DNA of 64,000 bases from Paracoccaceae bacterium (GTDB lineage: Bacteria; Pseudomonadota; Alphaproteobacteria; Rhodobacterales; Rhodobacteraceae). The translations under genes and the position numbers were made by a program. Location: NCBI GenBank assembly GCA_902543185.1, contig CACBXB010000007.1:1-64000 (forward strand). Reading direction: 5' to 3'. Under the pieces are notes generated by a model, which was not told the origin of the DNA, did not search any database, and saw only the letters and a program-made list of their open reading frames with translations. Every line of letters begins with the position of its first letter. Positions within the stretch are counted from its first letter, which is position 1. Shown in pieces: positions 2,034 to 18,559 of this stretch.

Positions 2034-4140
2034 TTTGATTAGCTTTCTTTTTCAGAGCCTCAAAATAAGCTTCTTTTGTCAGATCTGCTGCAATCCTACC
2101 TTGATCTAGAATTACAACTCTATCACAAATATTCACTAAATTCGGTTTGTGAGTAACTAAAATCATTGTTTGTTCATTAAGATGAGAAATCAGGTTCGTC
2201 ATTACGAGATTTTCCATCTCGATATCCATTGCACTTGTTGGCTCATCAAATAAATATATCTTCGGAGAGAAAAGAAGCGCACGTGCTAGCATCACTGCCT
2301 GTTTTTGACCGCCAGAAAGGTTAGTTCCCCTATCCTGTAAAAGAATGTCGAGATCCGCTGAACTATCTTCCCCAACAAAGTTGGCTCCGGCAAGTTGCAA
2401 GCACCGGGCAACATCATCATCATCGAATTCTTCATGCCCCAGAGTTATATTTTCTCGCAATGTTCCACTGAAAATCCATGGCTCTTGGAAGACAGTACCT
2501 ACCGTTCTATATAACTCACTTCTAGAAAATTGCCGAGCATCCGTGCCTCTAATCATTACTACGCCTGTTTCAGGTCTCAATAACCCAAGTGTAAGTTTTA
2601 CCAGTGATGTTTTTCCCGAACCTGTTTTGCCGATTACAGCGATTTTTTCTCCGCGTTTTATTGACAGGTTGAGACCCGTGAATAGGGGAGGTGCACTTTC
2701 CGATAGCCTCAACGTAACGTTTGAGATTTCGATTTCTTTTCCAGATGAAATATTAATGCTGTCTGATTGCTCTACGGTAGCCATGCGTGGAGCTGACAAA
2801 AAACTCTTGAGGTTTTGATATGCCACATAGGCGGCATTTGCCCGCCCAAGTGTCTGAGCAACTTTTGCAAGTGGCGCAAGTGCACGACCGGATAAAATGA
2901 CAACAGCAATGATAGCACCCATTGTGATTATCTGTTCGATGAACAAATGGAACCCATAGACGATAATAGCGACCTGACCGATTTGCTGAACTATTTGAAT
3001 TATGTTGGAGTTAAATTGTCCATAACTCTTGGATTTATTGGTGGCCTGACCATATTGATTGGATTCAGCAACAAATTTGCGTTTAACAAATGAAAACGCA
3101 CCGTTTGCTTTAATGGCCTCCAAACCATTAAGCATCTCGAGAATTATGCCTTGCCTTGCTACTGATGCTGAAGCTACGCGTTTTGACGTTGCGGCTAGAA
3201 TTGGCTGGACTGCTAATACACCTATCAAAATTGTGGGTATAGCGAGTAGTGGCACTATAAAAAGTGGTCCACCTATAAGATATATAACGAAAACAAAAAC
3301 AAATACAAAAGGAAGATCAACCAGAGTAAGAATAATAGCCGAACTTAAAAAATCTCTGTATGTTTCAAAATCTCTTAAAATTGTGGCTAATGCTCCGGTA
3401 CTTCTTTGGCCACTAATTTTTTCACCTTCGATATATTGTTCGAATATATTTTCAGTCACGGATATATCAGATCTGTTGGTAGATCTTTCCACAATTCGGC
3501 TCCGAGCTCCCTTAAGTAAAGTATCAAATAATATGGCAATACCTACTCCAGCTGCTAAAGCATAAAGAGATTCAGTAGCTTGGTTGGGAAGGACCCGGTC
3601 GTAAACAACCATAATAAATAGGGATGTAGAAAGCCCTAAAACATTTGAAATGAATGCCGCCATAGCGACCCAAAGTAAGCCGTTGGTTCCCAGCGCGCGT
3701 ACCGGATTAAGTGTACGCAGTCGCGCCTTTAATGTTTTTTTGTCTTCCTTGGAGGGCGACGCTGTTAGTATTTCTCCAGAATACCACTCTTTCAGATCGG
3801 TTAAGTTTACTCGGCTTGATTTGAGCCGACCAGACGTTGCCTCATAAACTTTAGCATTCTTATTATTGATTTGATCGAGAAGATATAATGAGCCATCTTT
3901 ACCTTTGAGAATAGCTGGCAAAACCTCTGAAGGAATTTTATCTATTGCTACTTTTCCTAGCTGACAGATAAAACCCATATGATTTAAAGCGTCAATATTC
4001 CAACCTATTGCTTCGCTTGCCGTGGATGCATTTAAAGCTTCAGAAACATCACTTTTAGACATGTTTTTTGAAAACCGCCTAACAAAGTTATAAGCTAAAT
4101 CGGGTGAGCGTAACTCTTGTGTTTTTTCTTGTTCAGTCAT
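2023..4140 (-). CDS. type I secretion ABC exporter (permease-ATPase)
   Basis: A 705-residue fused membrane-ATPase subunit that powers export of a protein substrate. Residues about 20-130 look like a C39-like domain without an obvious catalytic Cys-His pair, as in exporters of RTX or adhesin-type proteins. Six membrane helices span about 150-430. The nucleotide-binding domain shows Walker A GKTGSGKTS (about 505), signature LSGGQKQ (about 609) and Walker B IYLFDEPTS (about 630). The middle gene of the TolC-exporter-HlyD set, it starts directly after the TolC stop and overlaps HlyD. The substrate is unknown; no leader-peptide gene was seen. Confidence 0.93.
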   Translation of the reverse strand: MTEQEKTQELRSPDLAYNFVRRFSKNMSKSDVSEALNASTASEAIGWNIDALNHMGFICQLGKVAIDKIPSEVLPAILKGKDGSLYLLDQINNKNAKVYEATSGRLKSSRVNLTDLKEWYSGEILTASPSKEDKKTLKARLRTLNPVRALGTNGLLWVAMAAFISNVLGLSTSLFIMVVYDRVLPNQATESLYALAAGVGIAILFDTLLKGARSRIVERSTNRSDISVTENIFEQYIEGEKISGQRSTGALATILRDFETYRDFLSSAIILTLVDLPFVFVFVFVIYLIGGPLFIVPLLAIPTILIGVLAVQPILAATSKRVASASVARQGIILEMLNGLEAIKANGAFSFVKRKFVAESNQYGQATNKSKSYGQFNSNIIQIVQQIGQVAIIVYGFHLFIEQIITMGAIIAVVILSGRALAPLAKVAQTLGRANAAYVAYQNLKSFLSAPRMATVEQSDSINISSGKEIEISNVTLRLSESAPPLFTGLNLSIKRGEKIAVIGKTGSGKTSLVKLTLGLLRPETGVVMIRGTDARQFSRSELYRTVGTVFQEPWIFSGTLRENITLGHEEFDDDDVARCLQLAGANFVGEDSSADLDILLQDRGTNLSGGQKQAVMLARALLFSPKIYLFDEPTSAMDIEMENLVMTNLISHLNEQTMILVTHKPNLVNICDRVVILDQGRIAADLTKEAYFEALKKKANQNAR

Positions 4141-5895
4141 TTATTCAGTTAAAAATATTTGTTGGATGTCTTTGCAGATATCCACTACTGCACACGGCTG
4201 TGTAATAGCAGAGGCAGTTTCCAGTTTCTTTTGCATTAGTTCTGTTTGATGTTGAATTATATCAACTTCAGCCTGAGCAGAATTCAAAATTGCGCTTGCC
4301 AGACTTACTACGCCTACTTGGCCCGCCTTAAAACGTCTTTCAAGTTCAATACTTTTATTGAGTAAAATTTCTTTTCGTTCTTCTAAAAATTCACCATCTA
4401 TTCGGTGATATTTTTTATAGACTTCCCATGATGATAGGACGAGCTCCCGCTGTAACTCTAAAGCTTTGGTCTCTTGAATTAACACTTCAAGGTCTGCCTT
4501 TTTCTTCCTAATCGTAGCAGGGCTTTGTCCACCATCTAAAATTGGCTTGGTAACCGAAAAACCAGCAAATGTTGAAAATGATTCATTGACGGGACTTGGG
4601 GAGCTTAGGCTGGCATTAGCGTTTATACGATATCTGTCGAAGTTTTGAGCAATCTCAATTTCAGTCTCTAATGCAATTTGTCGAACAACAATTAAATCTG
4701 AGCTTACGTTTGTTTTTGTGTAGTTTAATTCGTACCCCGGCACTAGTCGGTTAGATATCTCTTCATTAACTTTAGAATATCGATCATCTAAATAGGTTTT
4801 TAGAAACTTTTCAGATTGGCTCTTCGTCAGTTTCAGACTTTCATACTGAGAATCGATATTATTCTTTGCTGCCTCGATTTCTAATAAATCGGTACGAGAT
4901 AGAATGCCTGAAGAAACCGCCGTTCTAATTGTCTGCTCACGCTTGCTATATTGTGCAAGGTAGGCATCAATCACGGCAAGAGAGTTTCTGGCTCCATCTA
5001 ATACAATGAAATTGCTGAGTAAATTTGTTAACTCCGAATTTAGGGTCGTATGAGCGGAAAGGATAGATGCTTGTGTTTCCAGTGCTGCCAATTTCAACTG
5101 TCTATCGGTTTGCCCGTAATCAAACATAAATTTTGACAAAGAAAAAGTTGCCTGTGCTCCAGGTTGAACTTTTCCCGACTCTGGGAAAATGCCTGCATTT
5201 GTCGAAAGGTTGGCTGTTAGGTTTTTTTGCGATGCAATAACGTCTAATGAGCTACTGCTCGCAATTATACTTTTCCTAGCCACTGTAACCACTGGTGAAT
5301 TTAATACAGCAATTGTTGTTTGGTGCTTAGCATTATCTTCAATTAATTTATTCGTTAGAGCGTTTACTTTGGGAACCGAAACTTGATCTGCAGGGGCAAA
5401 AAATGAAGAATTTTTTAAGCGTTCAAAAAAGTCGTCTGCAGCGATTACTGGGGCAGTTAATAAAGCTTTAGCTTGTTCGTATTCCACATTTTTGGGTGAG
5501 GTACCAGCAGCGTCTTTAATCTTTGGTTCAATTGCTTTTTTTGAAGAAGCGCCATTTGAAACTTTGTCTTTGTCTATTTGTGCAAAAATTGGATAACTTG
5601 TAAAATTTTCAAAGAAGTTATCTGCAGCAATTACTGGTGCAGTTAATAAAGCTTTTGCTTTTTCATATTCTGTATCGCTTGTATCTTGTTCGTTAGAGGA
5701 ATTTTTCGACCTTGAGTTTGCAACTTCAAATGAGGACGAAGCACTTAAGGTTTTACTTTTATGTGTTGAAGATAAAATAGGAGAATTTTTTAAGTTTTCT
5801 ACAATGTTATCTGCTGAATAACTACAGCCGTTCAACAGCAATATTACAATTATCGCTAAGGGTAATTTAAGCTTTAGTGCTGAGTCTGTTTTCAT
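4141..5895 (-). CDS. TolC-family outer-membrane channel with lipoprotein signal and N-terminal repeats
   Basis: A 584-residue outer-membrane efflux protein and first gene of the type I secretion set. The N-terminus is a lipoprotein signal with lipobox LNGC (Cys 24). Before the channel domain lie two near-identical segments (about 77-105 and 138-166) carrying AKALLTAPVIAAD followed by NFFEN or DFFER, and a weaker third version right after the lipid-anchored Cys (SADNIVENLKNS). The region from about 230 to 570 has the long helices and the ILDGGQSPATIRKK segment of TolC/OEP proteins. The extra 200 residues at the N-terminus are unusual for a TolC protein and may be a periplasmic or cell-wall-binding extension. 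Confidence 0.88.
   Translation of the reverse strand: MKTDSALKLKLPLAIIVILLLNGCSYSADNIVENLKNSPILSSTHKSKTLSASSSFEVANSRSKNSSNEQDTSDTEYEKAKALLTAPVIAADNFFENFTSYPIFAQIDKDKVSNGASSKKAIEPKIKDAAGTSPKNVEYEQAKALLTAPVIAADDFFERLKNSSFFAPADQVSVPKVNALTNKLIEDNAKHQTTIAVLNSPVVTVARKSIIASSSSLDVIASQKNLTANLSTNAGIFPESGKVQPGAQATFSLSKFMFDYGQTDRQLKLAALETQASILSAHTTLNSELTNLLSNFIVLDGARNSLAVIDAYLAQYSKREQTIRTAVSSGILSRTDLLEIEAAKNNIDSQYESLKLTKSQSEKFLKTYLDDRYSKVNEEISNRLVPGYELNYTKTNVSSDLIVVRQIALETEIEIAQNFDRYRINANASLSSPSPVNESFSTFAGFSVTKPILDGGQSPATIRKKKADLEVLIQETKALELQRELVLSSWEVYKKYHRIDGEFLEERKEILLNKSIELERRFKAGQVGVVSLASAILNSAQAEVDIIQHQTELMQKKLETASAITQPCAVVDICKDIQQIFLTE
5435..5484. repeat. direct repeat copy A inside the TolC-like gene
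   Basis: A 50-base unit beginning TCTGCAGC that matches 5621-5670 at 45 of 50 positions by eye. It encodes (on -) the YEQAKALLTAPVIAAD segment of the TolC-like protein. The mismatches mostly leave the protein unchanged, which suggests the repeat is held at protein level. Confidence 0.8.
5621..5670. repeat. direct repeat copy B inside the TolC-like gene
   Basis: Partner of the 5435-5484 repeat, 186 bases away; encodes YEKAKALLTAPVIAAD. A third, more diverged copy that matches only at protein level lies near 5790-5830, just after the lipoprotein cysteine codon. Confidence 0.8.
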
Positions 5896-7364: not shown

Positions 7365-8510
7365 TCATAAGCCAAGATCAAATGCAGCATCTTTCCAGGT
7401 TTTAAAAAATCTAGAACTTTGACTAGATAGTAAATCGTAATTATCGGTGGCTATATCAGAAGTGATAACTAGAGCCTCACCACCGATTTCTAACATTTCT
7501 TTATGCATCCCGCTCATTCTCCCAACTACTATTCCAACATTTGACAAAAATTTATCAGATGTTTCCAGCAAAGGATCAGAAAAAGAAAAATTGAGCTCAG
7601 TTGCTAATTCCCGCCAATTATCAGTGTTGCTCATCATAGGGTGAGGCCGGAGAAAAATGGCACAATTTAATTCTTTAATAATTTCGCCAATTTCAGATAT
7701 AGAATCTTCAGGTTTAATTAGTAGACCAACTCCGTTTCCCTTTGATAACCTCTTTTGCTTTAGAATAAATCCGATGTCAGAAAAACCGCATTGCGACAGC
7801 CACTCGCGACGCTCTTGAATTTCAGACTCACTCCTGCAAATTACAAAATTATAGTAGACTGGATTATTGGTTTTCAGAAGTGGGGAATGTGGTACAAAAA
7901 CAACATTTATTTCTCTTTCCAAGAAGTATTTACCGATCATATTCCCGAAAGCACTTAAATCCGTACAAATGTAAACGGTTGCCGCACTAATTTTCGTTTT
8001 ATTCAAAAAGAATTCCACGAAGAAAATGTCACAAATATAGTCAAAACAATGTGGGTTTTCGTTTAAAATTTTTCTAATTTCATTACGATTATTGAATATT
8101 CTAACCGACAAAAAATAGCAGTATTTAATAAAACTTTTCAAATTCAGCACCATCAGATTTTGTTTTTCTGATTGTACTTTTGATCCAGGAAAGTGAATGA
8201 TCGGAATATTATCAGTATCATTCAAAACTCTACGGAAGTTAAGTAACTGGTTAGTAGAGGCGGTAAAGCAAACTGCTCTAGCATTGTAAATACTTACAGC
8301 GTCTTGATGGGCACCATATCTGAGAGTACCAACGAAAATTTTAATTAAATGTATTAGAACGCGAGCGTTACCTTTTATTTTAGGATATGGAATTCGCTTT
8401 AGAAGTCTTGGCTCTAGCATCAGCAAACAAGTATATTGGTGAGCTAATTTACGCAACTCACTATTAGAATATTTACACCACTCAACTGCCCTCGAAGTCA
8501 TGCCACTCAA
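7365..8510 (-). CDS. unassigned GT-B-like protein beside a sialate synthase
   Basis: A 381-residue protein with no family I can name with confidence. It has no membrane segment. The second half shows features seen in GT-B transferases of capsule and sialic-acid systems: FLRPHPMMSN (about 285) and VGRMSGMHKEMLEIGGEA (about 340), a Gly-rich loop followed by a conserved-looking Glu. It overlaps the sialate synthase gene by 29 bases, so the two are probably co-translated. An inferred role is a sialyl- or related nonulosonate transferase, or a nucleotide-sugar epimerase of GT-B fold. Confidence 0.5.
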   Translation of the reverse strand: MSGMTSRAVEWCKYSNSELRKLAHQYTCLLMLEPRLLKRIPYPKIKGNARVLIHLIKIFVGTLRYGAHQDAVSIYNARAVCFTASTNQLLNFRRVLNDTDNIPIIHFPGSKVQSEKQNLMVLNLKSFIKYCYFLSVRIFNNRNEIRKILNENPHCFDYICDIFFVEFFLNKTKISAATVYICTDLSAFGNMIGKYFLEREINVVFVPHSPLLKTNNPVYYNFVICRSESEIQERREWLSQCGFSDIGFILKQKRLSKGNGVGLLIKPEDSISEIGEIIKELNCAIFLRPHPMMSNTDNWRELATELNFSFSDPLLETSDKFLSNVGIVVGRMSGMHKEMLEIGGEALVITSDIATDNYDLLSSQSSRFFKTWKDAAFDLGL

Positions 8511-9504
8511 TTATCTCCAGTGCTTCTTTGGTTCGCACTAACTTTTTCCCAAGTAAACTGTAGAATTCGGATGCTGGTATACCGGCAGCAGGCCTTAGAG
8601 CGATGACGTCTTGCTCACCAATTACGGCGCCAGCAGGCAATTTCTTGTTTAAGTAAAGAGATCGCCTGAATGAGACCTCATGGCCGTGGGCCTTTTCAAT
8701 CTCTAACAACGATTTCTTATTTGACCCTTGAAGTTGTTTGACCTGCTTTGAAAACTTAATTATCTCCTTAAACTCATCAATTGTTTTTGAAACCTTGTGG
8801 TCTCTAAAGTCTGATTTTATTTTCTTATCTGTAAAATGGGCCTCTATAACCTTAGCGCCCATTGAAATTGCCACTTGAATGGCGGTAGTCCCAATCGTGT
8901 GATCAGAGTAGCCTATTTGGTAGTTTGGAAATAGTTCCTTGAATCTATGCATTACATTTAAATTTGCATCAGAATATTCAATAGGGTACATTGAAGTACA
9001 TTGAAGAAGCGCGTGCTTTTGCTCCCCCATCTCACAATCTCTGTAGTACCTGTCTATAGCCTTAACGGCATCTATTACCTCTTGTTCTGAAGATAACCCT
9101 GTTGATATGATCAGAGGCTTTTTATACGCGCTAATCAACTCAAAAAAACGATAGTTAGTTAAATCACCTGAACCCACTTTCACATGCTTCATGTACGGTA
9201 TTAGCCCTTGCAGCATATCTTTATTCCATACAGATGCCAAATAGTCGACTTTCGAATTAATACACATTTCAGCAAGCTCTATGTGGTTTTCCAAAGATAG
9301 AGTAAACTTATTGAAGTGTTTTACACGACTAGGATCTACTACCTTGTTAGCTATTCCCTCTCCTGTATATGCTTGAAACTTAACAGCATTTACCCCTGAA
9401 TCTACTGCTTGGTTCAGTAGTTCTTTTGCCAATCCAAAATCACCTTCATGATTGCCTCCAATTTCGGCAATAATATACACGTCGTGCGTTTTTTGAGTTT
9501 TCAT
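8482..9504 (-). CDS. neuB: N-acetylneuraminate synthase family protein (NeuB-like)
   Basis: Condenses phosphoenolpyruvate with an N-acyl-hexosamine to make sialic acid or a related nonulosonate. The TIM-barrel part begins YIIAEIGGNHEGD and continues with VNAVKFQAYTGEG, LLQCTSMYPIEY and GYSDHTIGTT, all NeuB signatures. A C-terminal antifreeze-like (SAF) domain follows (FRRSLYLNKKLPAGAVIGEQ, LRPAAGIPASE). I use the ATG at 9504 (340 residues), which has AGGA about ten bases upstream; the frame stays open to a GTG at 9546. No NeuC or stand-alone NeuA gene is nearby, but a NeuA-like domain is fused to a glycosyltransferase at 18.9-20.2 kb. Whether the product is sialic, legionaminic or another acid is not clear. 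Confidence 0.88.
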   Translation of the reverse strand: MKTQKTHDVYIIAEIGGNHEGDFGLAKELLNQAVDSGVNAVKFQAYTGEGIANKVVDPSRVKHFNKFTLSLENHIELAEMCINSKVDYLASVWNKDMLQGLIPYMKHVKVGSGDLTNYRFFELISAYKKPLIISTGLSSEQEVIDAVKAIDRYYRDCEMGEQKHALLQCTSMYPIEYSDANLNVMHRFKELFPNYQIGYSDHTIGTTAIQVAISMGAKVIEAHFTDKKIKSDFRDHKVSKTIDEFKEIIKFSKQVKQLQGSNKKSLLEIEKAHGHEVSFRRSLYLNKKLPAGAVIGEQDVIALRPAAGIPASEFYSLLGKKLVRTKEALEIIEWHDFEGS

Positions 9505-9721
9505 GTCGTCCGTCATCCTTTTTCCCAACGTGCTAACAATTGCCACTCATCCCATACTATTAAAGTGACACTTAGGTTGATATATTCGGATCTTTGCCCG
9601 AGCTCAATGCAACCCTCGCTGCTTTAATTAAGTACCACGAATTCAAAAACTCGTTCAAGGAGCAAGTATAATACACAGCAGAGATATAATTCGGAAGATA
9701 GTGTTATTATCACTTAATAAA

Positions 9722-9738
9722 CCATTAAATTTTAATGG
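9722..9738. promoter_or_regulatory. perfect 8-bp inverted repeat overlapping a ribosome-binding site
   Basis: CCATTAAA and TTTAATGG flank a single T. The right arm ends in the first two bases of the GGAGG at 9737-9741. It could be a protein-binding site or an RNA hairpin that hides the ribosome-binding site of the small ORF at 9747. Confidence 0.35.
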
Positions 9739-9746
9739 AGGCATAA

Positions 9747-9839
9747 ATGTTTAAAGCACCTGCTGTTCTGAGGTTATGTTTGAAGAGAAATAGCTTTGGG
9801 TTAGGCAAGAGGTTTGTTGGCAAATATCGTACAAAGTGA
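9747..9839 (+). CDS. possible 30-residue basic peptide
   Basis: A short ORF (ATG 9747, TGA 9837) inside the 426-base gap between the divergent NeuB and epimerase genes. A perfect GGAGG sits 5 bases before the ATG, stronger than most ribosome-binding sites in this window. The peptide is very basic (11 Lys/Arg of 30) with one Cys and no membrane segment. It could be a leader peptide or a small regulator. The rest of the gap (9547-9746 and 9840-9972) holds presumed divergent promoters but nothing I can define. Confidence 0.3.
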   Translation: MFKAPAVLRLCLKRNSFGLGKRFVGKYRTK

Positions 9840-9972
9840 GGATTTATAAAACAAAAATGCAATAAAAATTATACTATCGACATCTCTGTTTCAGAATAAT
9901 ATAAGGACTTTTAAGGGTATGACTTTTGCAAATGTATCTATGTCGGGCAATCAAATAATTTGAGGATACTAG

Positions 9973-11001
9973 ATGTATTTAGTAACTGGTGGTGCAGGTT
10001 TTTTTGGAGAAGTATTAGTTTCGCGGTTATTGAACGCTGGTCATAAGGTTACCTCCCTTGATTTAAACCTACCCCAGATTAAAGACGAAAATTTACGTGT
10101 TGTTAAAGGAGATATTCGGGATAGAGAGGCCGTATGTTCAGCTTTAGAAGATGTCGAAATCGTTCATCATAACGTTGCGCAGGTGCCCATTGCGAAAGAC
10201 AGTAAGCTTTTTTGGTCAGTAAACCGTGATGGAACGAGGGTCCTTCTAGAAGAGCTCTACAAAAGAAAAATTAAAAGGCTCGTATATACATCCTCAAGCG
10301 CTGTATTTGGTGTTCCTGAAACCAATCCAGTTAAGGCTTCGAGCAGGCCAAATCCGAAAGAAGAATATGGCAAAGCCAAACTTTCAGGCGAAGCGATATG
10401 TATGGAATATGCTCAAAAGGGATTGAGTTGCTCGATTATCCGCCCTCGTACGGTGTTGGGCATGGGCAGGCTTGGAATATTTCAAATACTTTTCGAATGG
10501 ATTTATCAGGGCTACAATATTCCTGTGCTAGGTTCGGGCGATAATATATACCAGTTTATCCACTCTGATGATCTAGCAACTGCTTGCATAGCGGCTGGAG
10601 ATTTAAAAAAAGAAGGCATTTTCAACATTGGAACAGATCGGTTTGGTACCATGCGCCAAGCTCTAGAGAATTTGATCAAACATGCTGGTTCAGCGACCAA
10701 GGTAAGGTCAGTGCCGGCCAAGCTAGCTGAAATGGGTATGAGCTTTACTAGCTCGATCGGCCTATCTCCTCTCGGACCATATCATTCCTTGATGTATGGA
10801 AAAAGCATGTATTTTGATACTGATGAAGCTAAAATCGCATTAGGCTTCAAGCCAAAATATTCAAATGACGAAATGTTTGCGGCTACATATGACTGGTACT
10901 GTCAGAATAGAAGTGCCATTATTTCTGGACAAATTGTAGGCTCAAAACATCAGTCAGCTATGAAGCAAAAAATACTTCGGATAGTTCCATATTTTCTATA
11001 A
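9973..11001 (+). CDS. NAD-dependent epimerase/dehydratase (extended SDR)
   Basis: A 342-residue Rossmann enzyme. It has the N-terminal nucleotide-binding loop TGGAGFFGEVLVSRLL, the YTSSSAVFG strand with the catalytic Ser/Thr, and the YGKAKLSGEA YxxxK pair. The C-terminal substrate region is about 170-330. It probably epimerises or reduces a nucleotide sugar or a lipid-linked sugar. First gene of a + strand set with a small carrier, a GMC oxidoreductase, a UbiA-type prenyltransferase, a second SDR and a PAP2-like protein; in that setting it could act as a DprE2-like keto-reductase. The substrate is inferred from context only. Confidence 0.82.
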   Translation: MYLVTGGAGFFGEVLVSRLLNAGHKVTSLDLNLPQIKDENLRVVKGDIRDREAVCSALEDVEIVHHNVAQVPIAKDSKLFWSVNRDGTRVLLEELYKRKIKRLVYTSSSAVFGVPETNPVKASSRPNPKEEYGKAKLSGEAICMEYAQKGLSCSIIRPRTVLGMGRLGIFQILFEWIYQGYNIPVLGSGDNIYQFIHSDDLATACIAAGDLKKEGIFNIGTDRFGTMRQALENLIKHAGSATKVRSVPAKLAEMGMSFTSSIGLSPLGPYHSLMYGKSMYFDTDEAKIALGFKPKYSNDEMFAATYDWYCQNRSAIISGQIVGSKHQSAMKQKILRIVPYFL

Positions 11002-11018
11002 AGAGATCAGAGATTAAA

Positions 11019-11375
11019 ATGAAAATAGCTCTTACTTTAATTTTTTTTGCAGGACTTATCTCAACTTTTGGGAATTTATTATTAAAGGCTAGTAGAAAAA
11101 ATCTTACTGCAGAAAGTAGTTTGATTGAACAGTATATGTCACCCCTTTTCTTAGCGGCTTTAGCATTTTATGCTTTGAATTTGGTACTTTTTTCAAAAGC
11201 ACTAGATTTTTTACCTGTTAGTGTGGGTTATCCTATTCTAGCCGCTAGCGGCTTCATTATTTTAGCTGTTATGTCATGGTTTATATTAGGTGAGCGTCTT
11301 TCCTGGATACAGATTATAGGTATCGCAATAATAATCATGGGGATCTTTATGCTTTCTCATATGCCAAAGAATTAG
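11019..11375 (+). CDS. EamA/SMR-type small membrane transporter (ArnE/ArnF-like)
   Basis: A 118-residue protein with four predicted membrane helices (about 3-23, 42-62, 68-90, 95-114). The pattern SVGYPILAASGFIILAVMSW followed by ERLSWIQIIGIAIIIMGI is typical of the half-size EamA/SMR fold used by ArnE/ArnF to flip undecaprenyl-phospho-aminoarabinose. It lies 17 bases after the SDR gene. In this cluster a role in flipping a polyprenyl-phospho-sugar across the inner membrane is an attractive inference; a multidrug-type carrier is the alternative. Confidence 0.78.
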   Translation: MKIALTLIFFAGLISTFGNLLLKASRKNLTAESSLIEQYMSPLFLAALAFYALNLVLFSKALDFLPVSVGYPILAASGFIILAVMSWFILGERLSWIQIIGIAIIIMGIFMLSHMPKN

Positions 11376-11384
11376 ACATAGGCC

Positions 11385-11756
11385 GTGAACTTGCGAAGCT
11401 TCTATAAAATAATTTCATTATGCCTAATGCCAAATTATCCTGTGATTTCTTCACTAGCTAAGTACGAACTTGCTGATGAAACAGCTAATTTCATTTGTGA
11501 GCAATTCTCACGGCAGCCTTACTATATCTTATATCCACTGCGTATTATGGTGATTTTGCTTGCTATTTCAATTTGGACGGCTGGTCCCTCTTCCTTATCA
11601 CTCTGGCGCAAACTACCTGCTGGTAAAATGATTGAACGCTTGTTGCGATCACTCGTAACCATAAAGTTTTTTGAAAATCATGAAGTCTTAGCCGCGCTAA
11701 GTGAAAAGACTGGTTTAGAAAGAGCTGAACACTACAGAGCCAAATGGAATGCCTGA
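11385..11756 (+). CDS. small protein paired with the GMC oxidoreductase, unknown function
   Basis: A 123-residue protein starting at GTG 11385. One hydrophobic stretch (about 52-66, IMVILLAISIWTAG) could be a membrane segment or amphipathic helix; the rest is helical and charged. It overlaps the GMC oxidoreductase start by 8 bases, implying coupled translation. Several GMC-type dehydrogenases carry a small helper subunit encoded just upstream, so a helper or membrane-anchor role is plausible. There is no Tat signal and no family I recognise. Confidence 0.6.
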   Translation: MNLRSFYKIISLCLMPNYPVISSLAKYELADETANFICEQFSRQPYYILYPLRIMVILLAISIWTAGPSSLSLWRKLPAGKMIERLLRSLVTIKFFENHEVLAALSEKTGLERAEHYRAKWNA

Positions 11757-13260
11757 TTATATTCTCGAAGAAATAAAGGATCTTAACTGCGAAGTTCTCG
11801 TTATTGGTTCTGGTGCCGGGGGAGCAACTGTTGGTTATGAGCTTTCTAAAGCAGGTTATGATGTACTTATGCTTGAGGAGGGTCAATCAGTTCCAGCTGA
11901 AAAAGTGCCTTACACTCTTTCTGAAAGTTTCTTAAAGATGTGGCGTTATGGGGGTATGACGCTCGCAAAAGGAAATACGCCTGTTGCCTATGCGGAAGGT
12001 TGCTGTGTTGGCGGCAGTACAGAGATAAACAGTGCAATATTCCAGCGTCCTCCCGAAGAGTTAATTTCCAAGTGGGCGGAAATATACTCCATTAATGATT
12101 TTTCTCCGTCTCATCTGTCACCCTTATATGATCAGGCAGCAAGTCTTGTAAACGCCTCGCGCACCACAGGACAGCTTGGAGCCCATTCGGAAATACTTAG
12201 ACGTGCGGGTGAATTGAGGAACTGGGAAGTTAAACCATTGGACCGAGGTCATAAGAATTGTGTTGGAACAAACCATTGTTCTATCGGTTGCCCCACTGGT
12301 GCCAAGCAATCAATGTCAAATTCGGTATTACGTAAATTCATTGAGCATGGTGGTAGGCTTATTTCGAATTGCCGTGTCGAAAAAGTAATAAGAAGTGAGA
12401 TGTTAGTCAGGGGTGCGAGGGCGCAAGTCACTTCAGTAGAAGGACAAAATCAAATTATCACAGTTTATGCTAAGCATATTTTTGTTTGCGGTGGTGCAAC
12501 ACAAACGCCAATATTACTATTGAAAAGTGGTTTTAATCATGGAATAGGCAAAGGCTTTAGGCTCCATCCCACGATGCGGGTTATAGCAGAATTTGATGAA
12601 ACTATTGACGCGCAAAAATCCCGTCTGCCTTTGTACGCGATAACCGAATTTTCACCAGACTATAGAATTGGGGGCTCTGTATCTTCCCTGCCAACTTATG
12701 GAATGTTTTTAGCTGAAGATTGGGGCGCGAGATCCCATATGTTGCCGTCTTTTGCAAATATGACTATGTATTATGTTATGGCTCGCGGTACAGGATTGGG
12801 AAATGTAGCTAAAATTCCATTTTCAAAACACGCAGCAGTGAAATACCAGCTTTCGCTAGAGGATTGGAATAACATTGAAGTTGGTTTGCAAAATCTGGCT
12901 ATAAGCTTATTCGAAAGTGGTGCACGAAAAATCCAACCTTCTATTAATGGGATGAAAGCGTGGCATTCTATTGATGAAATGATTACTGCTATATCATATG
13001 GATTGCCTCGGAAGAAATGTAATTTGATGACGATCCATATGTTTAGTAGCATTCGTATCGGTGAAAATCCTAAGCTGAGCGCTGCAAATTCTTTTGGCAA
13101 AATTTGGGGTATGAAAAATTTATATGTCGCAGACGCAAGTCTTATTCCTGAATCTCCTGCAGTTAACCCTCAGGCAAGTGTAATGGCGCTAGCTTTACGT
13201 GTGGCAAAGAATTTTGTACAAAAAGAGAAAAGTAAGCATTCTGATGAACCGTTTAATTGA
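11749..13260 (+). CDS. GMC-family FAD-dependent oxidoreductase
   Basis: A 503-residue flavoenzyme that oxidises an alcohol group. Visible parts: FAD-binding loop VIGSGAGGATVGYELSKAG (about 19-37), the GMC signature EGCCVGGSTEINSAIF (about 83-98), a Cys-rich NCVGTNHCSIGCPTGAKQS (about 168-186) seen in bacterial GMC enzymes, and the C-terminal FAD/active-site block ADASLIPESPAVNPQASVM, where Asn-Pro follows the usual pattern. The gene lies between a small partner gene and a UbiA-type transferase. In mycobacteria a FAD enzyme (DprE1, a different family) oxidises a decaprenyl-phospho-ribose; this GMC enzyme could fill a similar role, which is inference. Confidence 0.85.
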   Translation: MPDYILEEIKDLNCEVLVIGSGAGGATVGYELSKAGYDVLMLEEGQSVPAEKVPYTLSESFLKMWRYGGMTLAKGNTPVAYAEGCCVGGSTEINSAIFQRPPEELISKWAEIYSINDFSPSHLSPLYDQAASLVNASRTTGQLGAHSEILRRAGELRNWEVKPLDRGHKNCVGTNHCSIGCPTGAKQSMSNSVLRKFIEHGGRLISNCRVEKVIRSEMLVRGARAQVTSVEGQNQIITVYAKHIFVCGGATQTPILLLKSGFNHGIGKGFRLHPTMRVIAEFDETIDAQKSRLPLYAITEFSPDYRIGGSVSSLPTYGMFLAEDWGARSHMLPSFANMTMYYVMARGTGLGNVAKIPFSKHAAVKYQLSLEDWNNIEVGLQNLAISLFESGARKIQPSINGMKAWHSIDEMITAISYGLPRKKCNLMTIHMFSSIRIGENPKLSAANSFGKIWGMKNLYVADASLIPESPAVNPQASVMALALRVAKNFVQKEKSKHSDEPFN

Positions 13261-14116
13261 TTATTTTAAGCTAATTAGGCCTCATCAATGGATCAAAAAT
13301 GGATTTGTTATAGCTCCATTATTTTTTTCAGGAAACTTAATGTCACCCAATATTCTAGCTGGATTGGTTGGCATAATAGCATTTTCACTGCTTTCTAGCA
13401 GTATTTATATTTTAAATGATTGGGCTGACATTGAGGCTGATAGGATCCACAAAAAAAAGAAATTGCGCCCTTTGGCGTCTGGTGCAGTAAGCAAAATTGA
13501 AGCATTCGTTATATTTACGATTATTGTTGGATTGCTAGTTGCGATAAGCACCATGTTCAATTTTTCAAGCTCAGCAATATCACTCTTGGCGTTGTATGGT
13601 ATTATCAACATCGGCTATTCGTTTGGCTTAAAGAATGTACCCATTCTTGAGCTATTGTTGGTGGCTAGTGGATTTATAATTCGATTACTGTTTGGGGCGT
13701 CAATTCTATTAGTTACTCTGTCACCTTGGATAATTATGTGCACAGGGCTCCTATCGCTTATGCTGGCCGTCGGCAAAAGACGTGGAGATTTAATTCAAAG
13801 TAACGATGAGACCTTTCAAAGGCGTTCATTAGCTGGATATAATTTGGTTTATCTTGACCAAGTTAATACGTTTTCAGCCACTGCAGTTTTCACCTGCTAT
13901 GTAGTTTTCTGTACATCTGAATATGCTATTGACAGATTTGGGGCAGAAATACTTCTAACATCTATTTTTGTTTTGTTTGGAATTTTACATTATTTAAAAT
14001 TATTAGCAGTTGATGGATTAGGCGATGATCCAACATCTTTAGTTTTGAATAACAATGGAATAAAATTAACATCAATCGGGTGGTTGATATCTTTCATCAT
14101 TATTATTTATTACTAG
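13244..14116 (+). CDS. UbiA-family decaprenyl-phosphate phosphoribosyltransferase-like protein
   Basis: A 290-residue membrane protein with about nine helices. The ATG at 13244 is preferred over an upstream in-frame GTG; it overlaps the oxidoreductase end by 17 bases. The first Asp-rich motif is NDWADIEADRIHKKKKLRP and a second cytoplasmic loop has LAVGKRRGDLI, both as in the DPPR-synthase branch (Rv3806c-like), which moves phosphoribose from PRPP to polyprenyl phosphate, rather than in quinone or heme prenyltransferases. A divergent PAP2 gene downstream could remove the 5-phosphate from the product. Confidence is high for UbiA and moderate for the DPPR-type assignment. Confidence 0.82.
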   Translation: MNRLIDYFKLIRPHQWIKNGFVIAPLFFSGNLMSPNILAGLVGIIAFSLLSSSIYILNDWADIEADRIHKKKKLRPLASGAVSKIEAFVIFTIIVGLLVAISTMFNFSSSAISLLALYGIINIGYSFGLKNVPILELLLVASGFIIRLLFGASILLVTLSPWIIMCTGLLSLMLAVGKRRGDLIQSNDETFQRRSLAGYNLVYLDQVNTFSATAVFTCYVVFCTSEYAIDRFGAEILLTSIFVLFGILHYLKLLAVDGLGDDPTSLVLNNNGIKLTSIGWLISFIIIIYY

Positions 14117-14126
14117 AGGGGTATTA

Positions 14127-15182
14127 GTGATGATAGAATATTCAAAAATTATCTTGACAGGTGGCACTGGCTGGCTGGGTAAAAGAATTGCCCAGGCATT
14201 AACCATAGGATTAGAGGAGCTCGGATCTATTGGCCAGGGCGGTAGAGAAGTAAAATGCCTTGTTAGACCGGGTGAAAACGTACAGGCGCTGCTTGATTTT
14301 GGCATTGAGATTTCATATGGAGACATAACAGAGACTGATGCATGTTTAGAGCTATTGAAGGGTGAAGAGGATAGCTTGATAATCCATACCGCAGGCCTTA
14401 TTCATCCTAAGTATTTTACTAAAGATTTCGTTAAGGTAAATGTAAACGGTACACTCAACTTACTCAACGCCGCCGCGACATTTAAAGCAGCGAGGTTTGT
14501 TGCTATTTCTTCGAACTCTCCATTTGGGTGCAATGCCTCTCCCGATCACTATTTTACGGAAGAGTCTGCATATAATCCTTACATGGGCTATGGAAAATCG
14601 AAGCACAAGATGGAGCAATATTTGGTGGAGTGTATGGCTAGCAAAGGCTATCCTGAGCTCACTGTCGTACGGCCACCTTGGTTTTATGGGCCAGGACAGC
14701 CTGCAAGACAAACGGACTTTTTTCGTATGCTCAAAGATGGCAGATTTCCCTTAATGGGAGCAGGCCTAAACAAACGATCAATGGGCTTTATTGATAGCTT
14801 GGCTTTAGGGACAATACTTGCAGCTTATTCCAAGAAGGCTGCTGGTGAAATTTATTGGATAGCCGACGAAAGGCCTTATTCAATGGTGGAAATTGCAGAA
14901 ACTGTTAAGCTCGTTTTAAGCGAAGATTTCGGTATAAAGGTAAAACCTAATAATCTTCATGTCCCCGGAGTGATCTCTGATCTCGCTAGATTAGTGGATG
15001 GTTCCTTGCAAACATTAGGTCTTTACCACCAAAAATTTCATGTTTTATCTGAAATGAACCAAAATATTATTTGTGACATTTCTAAAGCAAAGCAAGAATT
15101 AGCCTTTAAACCAATATGCGAACTACGCGAAGGAATGCGACGAAGTATTGATTGGTGTTTGAAAAATGGACAGGAAATTTAA
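14127..15182 (+). CDS. NAD-dependent epimerase/dehydratase (3-beta-HSD-like SDR)
   Basis: A 351-residue SDR with nucleotide loop TGGTGWLGKRIAQAL, the IHTAGLIHPKYF strand, SSNSPFGCN with the catalytic Ser, and YGKSKHKMEQY. The VVRPPWFYGPG segment places it near the 3-beta-hydroxysteroid-dehydrogenase-like branch that acts on lipid or polyprenyl-linked substrates as well as sugars. It starts 10 bases after the UbiA-type gene and overlaps the PAP2-like gene. Within the cluster it may reduce the keto intermediate made by the GMC oxidoreductase. Confidence 0.82.
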   Translation: MMIEYSKIILTGGTGWLGKRIAQALTIGLEELGSIGQGGREVKCLVRPGENVQALLDFGIEISYGDITETDACLELLKGEEDSLIIHTAGLIHPKYFTKDFVKVNVNGTLNLLNAAATFKAARFVAISSNSPFGCNASPDHYFTEESAYNPYMGYGKSKHKMEQYLVECMASKGYPELTVVRPPWFYGPGQPARQTDFFRMLKDGRFPLMGAGLNKRSMGFIDSLALGTILAAYSKKAAGEIYWIADERPYSMVEIAETVKLVLSEDFGIKVKPNNLHVPGVISDLARLVDGSLQTLGLYHQKFHVLSEMNQNIICDISKAKQELAFKPICELREGMRRSIDWCLKNGQEI

Positions 15183-15612
15183 AAAAATGGCGATCCCCTA
15201 TTTAATTGCACCCGTCGTTGGATATTTAGCTGCTGGTAGTCTAAAATTTGCGGTTAATTCTGTAAAATTACGAAAGCTCGCTGTGAAAGAAATTGGTATG
15301 GGCGGCATACCTAGCACTCACAATACAATCACATCCACTACTTTTTTTTCTATAGTATTTGGAGAGGGATTTATGTCTCCTGTATCAGCAGTAGCATTCA
15401 CAGTGTGTATAGTCGTAGCAATAGACTCAGTAGATTTACGTCGAAAATTAGAAGATCACGCTACCCTGCTCTCAATGGAACTTGGCAATGTAAACAATTT
15501 AGCGAAAAATTTGCGTACAAAATTGGGCCACAGACCGGTAGAAGTTTTAGCTGGTTGGGGCCTAGGCGCAGTTTGTGCTGCGCTTATACATAAATTTTCA
15601 CCGCTTTTTTGA
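15166..15612 (+). CDS. divergent PAP2 family membrane protein (DUF212)
   Basis: A 148-residue protein (141 if the ATG at 15187 is used, which has AGGA 11 bases upstream). It matches the divergent PAP2 pattern: GGIPSTHNTITSTTFF in place of the usual GGMPSSHSA, AIDSVDLRRKLEDHA, and a C-terminal LGHRPVEVLAGWGLGA. Three or four membrane helices are expected. A PAP2-type phosphatase is what a phosphoribosyl-polyprenyl route needs to remove the sugar phosphate. The start overlaps the preceding SDR gene by 17 bases. Confidence 0.82.
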   Translation: MDRKFKKMAIPYLIAPVVGYLAAGSLKFAVNSVKLRKLAVKEIGMGGIPSTHNTITSTTFFSIVFGEGFMSPVSAVAFTVCIVVAIDSVDLRRKLEDHATLLSMELGNVNNLAKNLRTKLGHRPVEVLAGWGLGAVCAALIHKFSPLF

Positions 15613-15754
15613 CTTAGTAATTATAAATATTGATTATGAATATAGCTCAGAACTATTTAAAGGGATCTTTTAAATCGCTAATCTCTCATGTTTTCCATCA
15701 GTCACTGTAAATTTTTGACTATAAAAATATTGTAATTTATTCAGTCGTATATTT

Positions 15755-17320
15755 TTGTTGTCAAAGTTCATATTAATTCTTATGACTTATTGTTATTTTG
15801 GTCTAATGAATTGGAACAACGGAGTGAGATGGATTTTTTTAGATCGTAGTTCAATTAATTTTACCAAATATTTTCATCTTTATTTATTTGGATTTATCCT
15901 CTTAACACTATCTCCTTTTGGTGTTCTTAGTGGAAACGAGGAGATGTACTATGGGTTAGCCAATAAATTTATTAATCCCGAATGGAATGGCGAGTATTCT
16001 TCTTTTATTTTCTCTGGAAATTATAGATTTATTTCGGACACAATAATTGGGCTAATGGTGAAATACCTTGGTTTCGAAAAAACCCAGATTATTGGATCAT
16101 TGTTTGCAAGTGTAATATTTGCTTTGGCACTATGGAAGCTCTGCACGACATTAGATTTGAATAATTCGTATGGACTGCTCTCAATTATAGTATTTGTGCT
16201 CCTAGGACAAAGTTTCATTGGGCGGGAATGGATTTTTGAAGACTTTGAAGCCAAAATATTTGCATATGTTTTCGTCATATTAGGGATAAATCAATACCTC
16301 AAAGAAAATAGTATGAAAATGGTAGTTTTATTATCAATTGCGACATATTTTCATCTTTTGGTTGGAGTACAATGGCTGTGTTTACTAGTTCTAGCTAGCT
16401 TTGTTTCAAATGGAAATCTTGTTGCAGCTATCAAAATTTTGGGTGCGTTTTTTTTATTGTGCTGTCCGATTTTGTTTATTGCGATTGAGGGGTTTTATGG
16501 ATCTAACTACATTCAGGACGACGCCATGCCCACTCCATTATATATTTATAGCTACATCCGTCAGTATAAAATGGTTCTTCCGTTTTACAGCGTACCGCGT
16601 TTTATTCTGCAGTGGTTGCCAGGAATAACTATCTACATTGGAATTCTAATAGGTCTTTGGGTCACACGGGGAACGCAAAAGGATGTAAAGTCAAAACTAT
16701 TATATGACCTTATAAAAGTTTCCACTGTAATGATTTTTGTTTTTTTGCTGGTATCAGCCATGGACAGCAGCGGCTCATTTGGCAAGCTTTATCCTTATCG
16801 CTTCACTAGTCTACTACTGCTGTTAACTCTTTTTTATGCATGCTTGAAATTACAAGTTAGCGACTTGAAAAGCGGAGCGAATATTGGCCCAGTATTGCTA
16901 CTTACTCTATTTCCATTTTTTGCTATGAGCGGAGCTATCAATAGCGTTAAAGAAATTCACAATCACCGCGAAGGACGCCCCGCTAAAGTTGAACTGTACC
17001 AATTTCTTTTAGACAATACCACTACTACCGACATTATTCTTATTGACCCAAAAATAGAAGAAAAACTACATGACATGGAAAGGAAGCTTAATAGACCCAC
17101 ATTAGTCACTTTCAAGTATATAACTTCTTCAAAAGAAGGTTTAGCTGAATGGTATAAGAGGCGAGAATTTAAATCACAAATAATTTCGAACTCAGAAAAG
17201 ATTGAGACACATTACCCATATAATTTTATAATTACGAATGAACCTTCACACGTTGATGAGCTAAGCCCAAACCATTCAAGAGTTTTTGAAAATGGTGTCT
17301 ATACAGTACTTAGAAAATAA
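15755..17320 (+). CDS. large multi-pass membrane protein, candidate GT-C glycosyltransferase
   Basis: Up to 521 residues with about ten membrane helices and a soluble C-terminal tail (about 400-521). The frame opens at TTG 15755; ATG 15782 or 15806 may be the true start. After the first helix the periplasmic loop has the acidic motif SGNEEMYYGLA, a placement typical of the catalytic acidic residue in GT-C enzymes that use polyprenyl-phospho-sugars. Other visible pieces are REWIFEDFEAKIFAYV and GKLYPYRFTSLLLL. It ends the + strand polyprenyl-pentose-like cluster, so a transferase using that donor is a reasonable inference, but I recognise no named family. Confidence 0.62.
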   Translation: MLSKFILILMTYCYFGLMNWNNGVRWIFLDRSSINFTKYFHLYLFGFILLTLSPFGVLSGNEEMYYGLANKFINPEWNGEYSSFIFSGNYRFISDTIIGLMVKYLGFEKTQIIGSLFASVIFALALWKLCTTLDLNNSYGLLSIIVFVLLGQSFIGREWIFEDFEAKIFAYVFVILGINQYLKENSMKMVVLLSIATYFHLLVGVQWLCLLVLASFVSNGNLVAAIKILGAFFLLCCPILFIAIEGFYGSNYIQDDAMPTPLYIYSYIRQYKMVLPFYSVPRFILQWLPGITIYIGILIGLWVTRGTQKDVKSKLLYDLIKVSTVMIFVFLLVSAMDSSGSFGKLYPYRFTSLLLLLTLFYACLKLQVSDLKSGANIGPVLLLTLFPFFAMSGAINSVKEIHNHREGRPAKVELYQFLLDNTTTTDIILIDPKIEEKLHDMERKLNRPTLVTFKYITSSKEGLAEWYKRREFKSQIISNSEKIETHYPYNFIITNEPSHVDELSPNHSRVFENGVYTVLRK

Positions 17321-17515
17321 TTTCTAAATAGTACATAAGTTGACGCTATTTGTACAAAAATAAACTAGGTTTGCGAAGGTCACTGATATATTTCTTTATT
17401 TAGGATTTCTACGGTAAACGCTTGCCCGAATTTCAAACACTTAAAATTTAAAATCAATCAAAAATTTTACAAAAGTGAATGCGTTGAATTACTTCTTCTT
17501 TTTTGGGAATTAAGC

Positions 17516-18559
17516 TTATTTTATTTCAGCCCAGACACCCTCAAAATAGCCTCCAGATTGAGAAAGTCTTTTATGGGAGTGCCAAGCGTCATTTGCCGCT
17601 AGAATTTTGTAACCGGAAAGAAAGTTATTGTAGTCTTCGAATGTTATAGGAGTGTTGACACTGATTTCACCAGCCGTCTCTTTCCCATGACGTGCTTGCA
17701 TTAAGTAGATCCACTTAGCGTTTCCTTTAATGTATTTCAAATAATTTTGAACGATATCTGGTTCCATTTCACCAAAACTGGCTGCATTCCAAAAAATATC
17801 GAATTGAAAATCGTTTAGTAAAGGTACTTGCCAGCTTCCTAAAAAATGAACGCTTCCCTTTTTAATGTTGGATAAATCATTCCATTTAAGACAATTCTCT
17901 ATTCCGACAATGTCAGTTTCACCTAAAGCGTTAGTGAGATATTCTTCGCAAAGATATAGCTGTAAAGGTAAGTCAAAACATAAAATCGTGAGATTTGGGT
18001 AAAGTTTTTTCAGTATTTCAATCTGATAACCGGAACCTGACCCAAGCTCAACAATTACCTCATCGCCTTTTAACGACATATGTTTGTTAGCGAAGCAATA
18101 CCTTCGGTAATAACTTAGGAAGGGTACAGTGTATTTACTCCCATTGATTTCAAATAAATCTGGAGGATTACCAAATTCCGATACTTCAATATTGCTTATT
18201 GGAACTGAATTGGTTGAATCACACATTAACTCGCAGTGGCGATATGCCATTTCCTCAATATCTGATTTCCTGAGTTTATAAGGAAGTATGGCCCTATTTT
18301 TAATTACATAATGTTGAAAAAATTTCATTATCAATTTTTTCCAAAAGGATAGCCTTGGATGAAAGGTATATGCACCATCAATAAATCCAAATGTTGAGAG
18401 TATCGGATATTTTCCAGACCGCATCTGGCCAAGATCCAATCCCTCAATCATATTGATTAACTGTGTTTCATAATTCGCCCAGTAATTTGCAACTCGATAT
18501 TCGCTTGGAGCTTTGTTGTATTCCTCCAAAAGGATATTTATTTTATCTTTTTTTTTCAC
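17516..18559 (-). CDS. putative sugar O-methyltransferase (SAM-dependent)
   Basis: A 347-residue protein. The SAM-binding motif EVIVELGSGSGYQIEILKK is near residue 170, followed by ILCFDLPLQLYLCEEYL, the arrangement of the putative sugar O-methyltransferases found in polysaccharide clusters. The last 100 residues contain WNAASFGEMEPDIVQNYLK. It is the promoter-distal gene of the minus-strand polysaccharide block and converges with the GT-C-like gene at 17320. The 195-base gap between them holds only a weak 6-bp inverted repeat near 17325-17350. The sugar acceptor is unknown. Confidence 0.72.
   Translation of the reverse strand: MKKKDKINILLEEYNKAPSEYRVANYWANYETQLINMIEGLDLGQMRSGKYPILSTFGFIDGAYTFHPRLSFWKKLIMKFFQHYVIKNRAILPYKLRKSDIEEMAYRHCELMCDSTNSVPISNIEVSEFGNPPDLFEINGSKYTVPFLSYYRRYCFANKHMSLKGDEVIVELGSGSGYQIEILKKLYPNLTILCFDLPLQLYLCEEYLTNALGETDIVGIENCLKWNDLSNIKKGSVHFLGSWQVPLLNDFQFDIFWNAASFGEMEPDIVQNYLKYIKGNAKWIYLMQARHGKETAGEISVNTPITFEDYNNFLSGYKILAANDAWHSHKRLSQSGGYFEGVWAEIK

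Follow-up and report, generated by a model that had tools for sequence, protein, structure and literature searches.

Introduction

A general pentofuranose pathway of Gram-negative bacteria has already been published (PMC11127046), and the novelty of the locus described here lies in its enzyme set, not in that pathway. The locus is a cluster of eight genes at positions 9973-17320 of a 64,000-nucleotide stretch of DNA from a Paracoccaceae bacterium (contig CACBXB010000007.1), which as a whole we call the window. From sequence comparison, we put at about 0.7 the probability that the product of the cluster is a polyprenyl-phosphate-linked pentofuranose, not ribofuranose, that is passed to a periplasmic glycosyltransferase. 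The cluster is best read as the known pathway in a variant form, with non-homologous enzymes taking over epimerisation.

The mycobacterial pathway to decaprenyl-phospho-arabinose consists of Rv3806c, Rv3807c, DprE1, DprE2 and Rv3789, as given in PMC11127046. The cluster resembles it in the proposed order of steps, in a UbiA homologue of Rv3806c and in an SMR-family transporter. Unlike mycobacteria, it has no homologue of DprE1 or DprE2 and would use a non-homologous oxidase and reductase. The three-component systems of Citrobacter youngae O1 and O2, outlined in the same paper as a polyprenyl-phosphate phosphoribosyltransferase (PPPRS), a flippase and a GT-C glycosyltransferase (GT136), share with the scheme proposed for the cluster a lipid donor that PPPRS makes and that is then dephosphorylated, optionally epimerised, flipped and used by a GT-C enzyme outside the cytoplasm. 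As described there, the phosphatase is a fused HAD domain where the cluster has DUF212, the flippase is of the MATE family where the cluster has SMR, and the epimerase is a single SDR (for xylofuranose) or a pair of DprE1/DprE2 homologues (for arabinofuranose) where the cluster has a GMC dehydrogenase and extended SDRs. ORF13 of C. youngae O2 is an extended SDR whose presence tracks xylofuranose (PMC11127046).

A lipid-linked D-arabinofuranose route is also described in alphaproteobacteria, where the rhizobial genes noeCHOP (and noeN), which the strains described carry on symbiosis plasmids, serve Nod-factor arabinosylation (PMC5080398, PMC6689892). There noeC, noeH and noeO are reported as orthologous to mycobacterial enzymes, which by that description sets them apart from the cluster; the related module on plasmid pNGR234a has no DprE1 or DprE2 match, unlike noeCHOP as described. 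In the literature seen, the published epimerisation step is DprE1/DprE2 or a single SDR. Neither "GMC" nor "oxidoreductase" occurs in the main text of PMC11127046 (as distinct from its supplementary information), and no paper that places a GMC enzyme in a pathway of this kind was found in a literature that covered few subscription papers. A paper on Brucella ovis flavoproteins mentions DprE1 and GMC oxidoreductase once each.

Gene order and the phosphoribosyltransferase

All eight genes lie on the + strand and encode, in order, an extended SDR (SDR1), an SMR protein, a small protein, a GMC dehydrogenase, a UbiA protein, a second extended SDR (SDR2), DUF212 and a membrane protein. The original prediction, made from the letters of the window, had placed eight open reading frames here and had called the UbiA protein DPPR-synthase-like and one neighbour a divergent PAP2 protein; the open reading frame coordinates bear out the positions, and both protein assignments hold on the evidence below. 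Among the first seven genes the gaps measure 17, 9 and 10 bases and the remaining junctions overlap (small protein/GMC, GMC/UbiA, SDR2/DUF212), and the membrane-protein gene starts 142 bases after DUF212; the short gaps and overlaps suggest one operon.

Judged by its sequence relationships, the UbiA-fold protein (13244..14116, +) is a PPPRS. Its reading frame is open from a GTG at 13199, which would give a protein of 305 aa, and we infer that translation more probably begins with the ATG at 13244. Its only relative in the PDB is Rv3806c (two sequences; the best, 8j8j, at 1.9e-35). Against the NCBIfam model NF008978, "decaprenyl-phosphate phosphoribosyltransferase", it scored 196.4 bits and so falls outside the equivalog, whose curated cut-off of 207 is passed in just 7 class genomes out of the 63 that show a match; models other than those of PRK12324 and PRK08238 gave at most 46 bits. 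A tree of 31 rows divides 25 PPPRS proteins, hand-picked from those fetched, from six other UbiA proteins (three from the source genome, three from Palleronia) with support of 99/98, at a split that carries a long-branch warning. The three UbiA proteins of the source genome are encoded outside the cluster. In neither the PDB matches nor the tree does the window protein group with quinone or heme prenyltransferases, an identity that we rejected on these results and on the NCBIfam scores. The protein carries NDWADIEAD, which fits the motif NDxxDxxxD, and quinone UbiA proteins carry a similar motif. The residues of NDxxDxxxD are described as required for the activity of ORF15 of C. youngae (PMC11127046).

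Oxidoreductases of the cluster

The GMC FAD dehydrogenase (503 aa; 11749..13260, +) is the proposed oxidase of the lipid-linked ribofuranose, standing in for DprE1. It matched the Pfam families PF00732 (127 bits) and PF05199 (58 bits), and all its Pfam matches are GMC or generic FAD/NAD-binding families; a search with a profile of four DprE1-like proteins gave no match at E<=10, and we rejected homology to DprE1. A cysteine triplet, C171-x5-C177-x3-C181, together with H430 and N473, is kept in 8/8 aligned members (the alignment omits L023, where the annotation splits the GMC gene into two pieces that overlap, and its row for L015 takes in a few residues beyond the gene end). The triplet aligns with cysteines of the fructose dehydrogenase large subunit in a local alignment of E 0.07, below two pyridoxine-oxidase-type matches. 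Its spacing and the His/Asn pair match the FAD glucose dehydrogenase of Burkholderia cepacia, in which Cys212, 218 and 222 are reported to hold a [3Fe-4S] cluster and His476/Asn519 to be catalytic (PMC6719666).

The likeness to the gamma-alpha complex of that enzyme extends from the GMC fold, the Cys-x5-Cys-x3-Cys motif and the His/Asn pair to a small partner gene. The B. cepacia complex is described as lying in the periplasm and as including a multihaem cytochrome and a small subunit that is exported (PMC6719666), whereas no multihaem cytochrome gene is found among the cluster genes, the small protein is not detectably homologous, and the GMC protein contains no hydrophobic segment, including none for export, which points to a cytoplasmic site. 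The small helical protein (123 aa; 11385..11756, +) matched no Pfam or NCBIfam family, Gluconate_2-dh3 included, for which hhalign gave probabilities of 8% and <1%. It was modelled as all helix at a predicted local distance difference test score (pLDDT) of 89, with one transmembrane-like helix, and its fold found no Foldseek match at E<=0.001 (best VIA Z 4.8). It is a constant partner of the GMC protein: its gene precedes that of the GMC in loci L012-L015, L029 and L191 and in 8/8 rhizobial records examined, and a weak match (32 bits) does so in L158.

SDR1 (9973..11001, +), which is proposed to reduce the keto lipid-sugar with NAD(P)H, scored 131 bits against PF01370 and has the cofactor motif TGGAGFFG and a YxxxK motif, YGKAK. 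Neither it nor SDR2 matched a profile of four DprE2-like proteins at E<=10, and identity with DprE2 was rejected for both. In an unrooted tree of 56 SDRs, which left out matches shorter than ~700 bases, scoring <25 bits or containing a stop, 22 PPPRS-linked SDR1 proteins form one group (support 100/99), and the window's three other SDRs fall outside it. The group takes in 13 GMC-type loci (L163, from the genus of L158, is tallied here though its contig holds no GMC), eight DprE1 loci without DprE2, and L074. SDR1 proteins of the DprE1 type are 27-33% identical to the window's and make up one subgroup, which argues for a single origin. The simplest reading is that SDR1 may substitute for DprE2 and work with either oxidase.

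SDR2 (14127..15182, +; PF01370, 90 bits; motifs TGGTGWLG and YGKSK) has an uncertain role, either in an extra epimerisation or as an alternative reductase. At >=200 bits it occurs in the survey described next only with this GMC; it was not found in L029.

Alternative enzymes among PPPRS loci

We surveyed the neighbours of PPPRS genes within 6 kb in 63 of 385 genomes of the class and 57 of 398 of the phylum, which with five shared make 115 loci, the window included. The genome searches used different limits (1e-25 and 1e-20), and the profiles were built from 3-11 proteins each, the window's among them, so that seed loci match by construction; two thresholds were altered after the scores had been seen (SDR1 from 200 to 180 bits, DprE1 from 300 to 200). 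DprE1 and DprE2 occur together in 65 of the 115 loci, DprE1 with the SDR1 family and without DprE2 in 8, and the GMC with SDR1 in 4 (the window, L029, L158 and L191). SDR1 stands alone in 2, DprE2 in 2 and DprE1 in 1, and 33 loci, some of them short contigs, have none of the five oxidoreductases. The GMC and DprE1 were together in 0/115 loci, and the non-overlap is strengthened by further GMC loci in which DprE1 was not found (L012-L015, L020-L023, L130-L134). Nor was DprE1 found in the source genome, 75% complete, where the best match reached 38 bits against >=200 for survey matches.

These tallies suggest that the GMC replaces DprE1 and that SDR1 replaces DprE2. The proposal that a GMC enzyme takes DprE1's place is thereby supported, while a DprE2 homologue, also part of the original prediction, is not in the cluster, the proposed reductase being an extended SDR of another family. 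The eight loci with PPPRS, DprE1, SMR and an SDR1-family gene have no DprE2 within 9.5 kb (L101, L181, L183, L185, L198, L200, L201 and L202).

The phosphatase candidates alternate as well. DUF212 (148 aa; 15166..15612, +), a divergent PAP2 protein, scored 71.4 bits against PF02681 (cut-off 26.5) and is likely the 5'-phosphatase of polyprenyl-phosphoribose-5-phosphate, to go by its family, neighbourhood and residues. PSxH and GHxxE, which we take to resemble PAP2 motifs, are common to six aligned DUF212 proteins. Only two of the 385 class genomes have DUF212, each <=1.1 kb from PPPRS: in the window it lies 1.05 kb away with SDR2 between, and in G470 directly after PPPRS. It is also near stand-alone PPPRS genes in L012 (3.5 kb), L015 (1 kb), L031 and L157 (adjacent). 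Of the 115 loci, 69 show a HAD domain and 3 show DUF212, none shows both and 43 show neither, and DUF212 was not found in HAD-type loci; L014 and L029 have a stand-alone PPPRS with neither found. In L157 (at 10057) DUF212 adjoins a stand-alone PPPRS in a locus with DprE1 and DprE2, so DUF212 may follow the type of PPPRS, not that of the oxidase. The phrase "divergent PAP2" had no literature occurrence among the matches listed.

Transport and transfer candidates

The SMR/EamA protein (118 aa; 11019..11375, +), which is proposed to flip the lipid-linked pentose by itself or as a flippase subunit, has four hydrophobic segments and matched PF00892 (41 bits) and PF00893 (31 bits); its weak matches include the ArnE and ArnF models (ArnE 34 bits against a cut-off of 92). 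Its gene adjoins SDR1 in most GMC loci and was not found in L015, L029 or L158.

The multi-pass membrane protein (521 aa; 15755..17320, +), a proposed GT-C pentofuranosyltransferase, has about ten hydrophobic segments and matched no Pfam family above cut-off (DUF6798, 17.3 bits against 26.9). Relatives occur in four plasmid records, and the two examined, from Skermanella and Thioclava, are 26-27% identical and adjoin GtrA and GT2 genes, the arrangement of polyprenyl-phosphate sugar transfer systems. Among six membrane-protein candidates at other loci, those of L012 and L015 pass the PMT_2 cut-off, that of L013 falls below it and three match nothing; the frame in L014 is probably not a gene. 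Set against the three-component scheme, the cluster has PPPRS and SMR, and a GT-C candidate named by its topology and its relatives' context.

Distribution of the gene set

Close relatives mostly lack the set. The GMC is absent from 15/15 genomes of the same genus (53-96% complete), and at E<=1e-40 it occurs in 2/195 genomes of relatives, the source genome counted. At E<=1e-70 the family is in 3/385 genomes of the class sample, in two of the three beside PPPRS. A scan of genome contigs yielded eight GMC loci, of which L012-L015 hold SDR1, the small protein, GMC, PPPRS and SDR2 together; the contig of L019 is too short to judge. Plasmid records with a GMC match number 12, three at 26-28% identity and nine rhizobial ones at 44-46%. 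Eight of the nine were examined: SDR1, SMR, the small protein, GMC and SDR2 are in 8/8 and PPPRS in 7/8. In all, GMC, SDR1 and SDR2 accompany PPPRS in L012-L015, L158, L191 and 7/8 rhizobial plasmid records, L158 lying outside the class. The original prediction of a conserved cluster therefore stands for distant genomes and rhizobial plasmids and fails among close relatives. The recurrence in distant genomes means that the grouping exceeds chance.

The set occurs with PPPRS of two lineages, and the phosphatase candidate differs between them. One lineage is stand-alone (a group of five rows, support 99/96) and the other HAD-fused (a mostly HAD-fused group of 11 rows, 98/100); in Palleronia and rhizobial loci PPPRS is accompanied by a HAD domain, like ORF15 of C. 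youngae. Palleronia rufa (G081) belongs to the same family as the source organism. On pNGR234a (L020) the module is complete (10037-18102) and is separated from nodS/nodU by about 7 kb that include an IS21 element. No relevant paper for this gene set was found under six y4n gene names, which we take to be its own; the record carries NGR_RS tags. In L029, SDR2 and SMR are missing and two similar membrane-protein genes flank the set.

Proposed pathway and its alternatives

The identity of the PPPRS, the recurrent set and the alternatives in the survey support the overall reading of the cluster as a pentofuranose pathway, in which the reactions are proposals throughout, as are the choice of carbon to be oxidised, the acceptor of the electrons and the resulting sugar. 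PPPRS would join phosphoribosyl pyrophosphate and polyprenyl phosphate into lipid-phospho-ribose-5-phosphate, and DUF212 would remove the 5'-phosphate to leave lipid-phospho-ribofuranose. The GMC and its small partner would then oxidise one ring hydroxyl to give a keto sugar, most likely at C2, a position taken from DprE1, with electrons passing through FAD, and through a [3Fe-4S] cluster where the cysteine motif is kept, to an acceptor that lies within the membrane or close to it. SDR1 would reduce the keto sugar from the opposite face, most likely to arabinofuranose, SDR2 would perform a further or alternative step, the SMR protein would flip the lipid sugar outward, and the GT-C candidate would move the sugar onto a surface glycan.

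Several observations weigh against this pathway. Among PDB entries ranked by overall profile score, cellobiose dehydrogenase and choline oxidase, rather than glucose dehydrogenase, come nearest to the GMC; the divergent GMC proteins of L029 and L158 have lost the cysteine triplet and kept His/Asn; and no homology was detected between the small protein and the known gamma subunit. From the tallies, non-overlap would arise by chance in about 2% of cases for the GMC (4 loci) and about 6% for DUF212 (3 loci), and the eight DprE1/SDR1 loci, a single tree group, are not independent events. SDR2 is superfluous in a DprE1/DprE2 model. L074 and L163, both near contig ends, have SDR1 and PPPRS with no oxidase seen, a pattern in keeping with SDR1 acting as an epimerase by itself. 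For the 521-aa protein, the model made from its single sequence (pLDDT 41) is unusable for its fold, and the source assembly (2.02 Mb) is incomplete. Some rhizobial copies are decaying, as the fragmented genes of three loci indicate: in L023 (5517-11487) the GMC and UbiA genes are in pieces, in L132 (1334-10476) the genes are fragmented, with HAD pieces and no PPPRS match, and in L133 (17068-17888) the HAD part lies in two frames; all three copies look broken. L016-L018 encode more distant GMC proteins (292-417 bits) where the set was not found, a 41-bit PPPRS match in L016 being probably another UbiA. In L030 (G495, 7618-11671), where genes were named by eye, a related small-GMC pair sits between aminotransferase-like and formyltransferase-like genes; a polyprenyl-phosphate glycosyltransferase-like gene is close by, PPPRS was not seen, and the substrate of the pair may be a different lipid-linked sugar. 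Together with L016-L018, this locus indicates that the small-GMC pair is not bound to pentose.

The alternative that survives best, which we nevertheless hold to be unlikely, is that the product is plain ribofuranose, or xylofuranose made by a single SDR as a GalE-like epimerase, the GMC having an unrelated task. ORF13 of C. youngae O2 offers a precedent (PMC11127046), and the Marivivens locus L031 has PPPRS, DUF212 and SMR with no DprE1/DprE2, GMC or SDR1/SDR2 match alongside, its GDP-mannose dehydratase-like SDR sitting about 5 kb off. L074 and L163 fit it too, although their contigs end close by. This alternative has to contend with a GMC and small partner kept together to about 45% identity across both PPPRS lineages, and with the eight loci in which an SDR1-family protein accompanies DprE1 where DprE2 is missing.

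The arabinofuranose expected from the oxidase-reductase scheme has a rather improbable competitor in an unbranched D-lyxofuranose, formed if the pathway inverted both C2 and C3 of the lipid-linked ribofuranose. What prompts it is the GMC and SDR1 pair together with SDR2, which in the surveyed loci occurs solely alongside this GMC. Lyxofuranose is described in PMC11127046 as the pentofuranose epimer in no solved carbohydrate structure; branched L-lyxofuranose is reported from Coxiella lipopolysaccharide, which narrows the idea to an unbranched sugar. If true, rhizobial plasmids and free-living alphaproteobacteria would share a sugar not seen before.

It is doubtful that the GMC/SDR set works at a different position or yields a keto, branched or amino pentose: the neighbours of the L030 pair and the extra enzyme SDR2 lean that way, but the eight cluster genes include no aminotransferase or formyltransferase, and the GMC occupies the place that DprE1 has in other loci. 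It is scarcely credible that the UbiA protein belongs with quinone or other prenyltransferases and that the gene grouping is accidental, since against the shared PF01040 family of the UbiA superfamily and a score just short of the NF008978 cut-off stand the exclusive PDB match to Rv3806c, the tree split, the recurrent neighbourhood and the separate location of the genome's three other UbiA genes.

The recurrent GMC with extended SDR, together with the intermediate state of DprE1 with the same SDR family, suggests a stepwise rebuilding of epimerisation. It gives testable roles to DUF212, to the GMC/small pair and to the pNGR234a genes near nodSU, and would make the GMC set a marker by which surface glycans or symbiotic signals with unusual pentoses could be found.

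Genomic setting

The cluster is flanked on the - strand by a NeuB-type synthase gene (8482-9546) and a NanM-type sugar methyltransferase gene (17516-18559), both assigned by Pfam/NCBIfam. These neighbours make a polysaccharide locus likely and suggest a nonulosonate-containing surface polysaccharide. Further upstream on the - strand (738-5895), HlyD-like, ABC transporter and outer-membrane-factor-like genes, named by eye, form a candidate type I secretion or export set.

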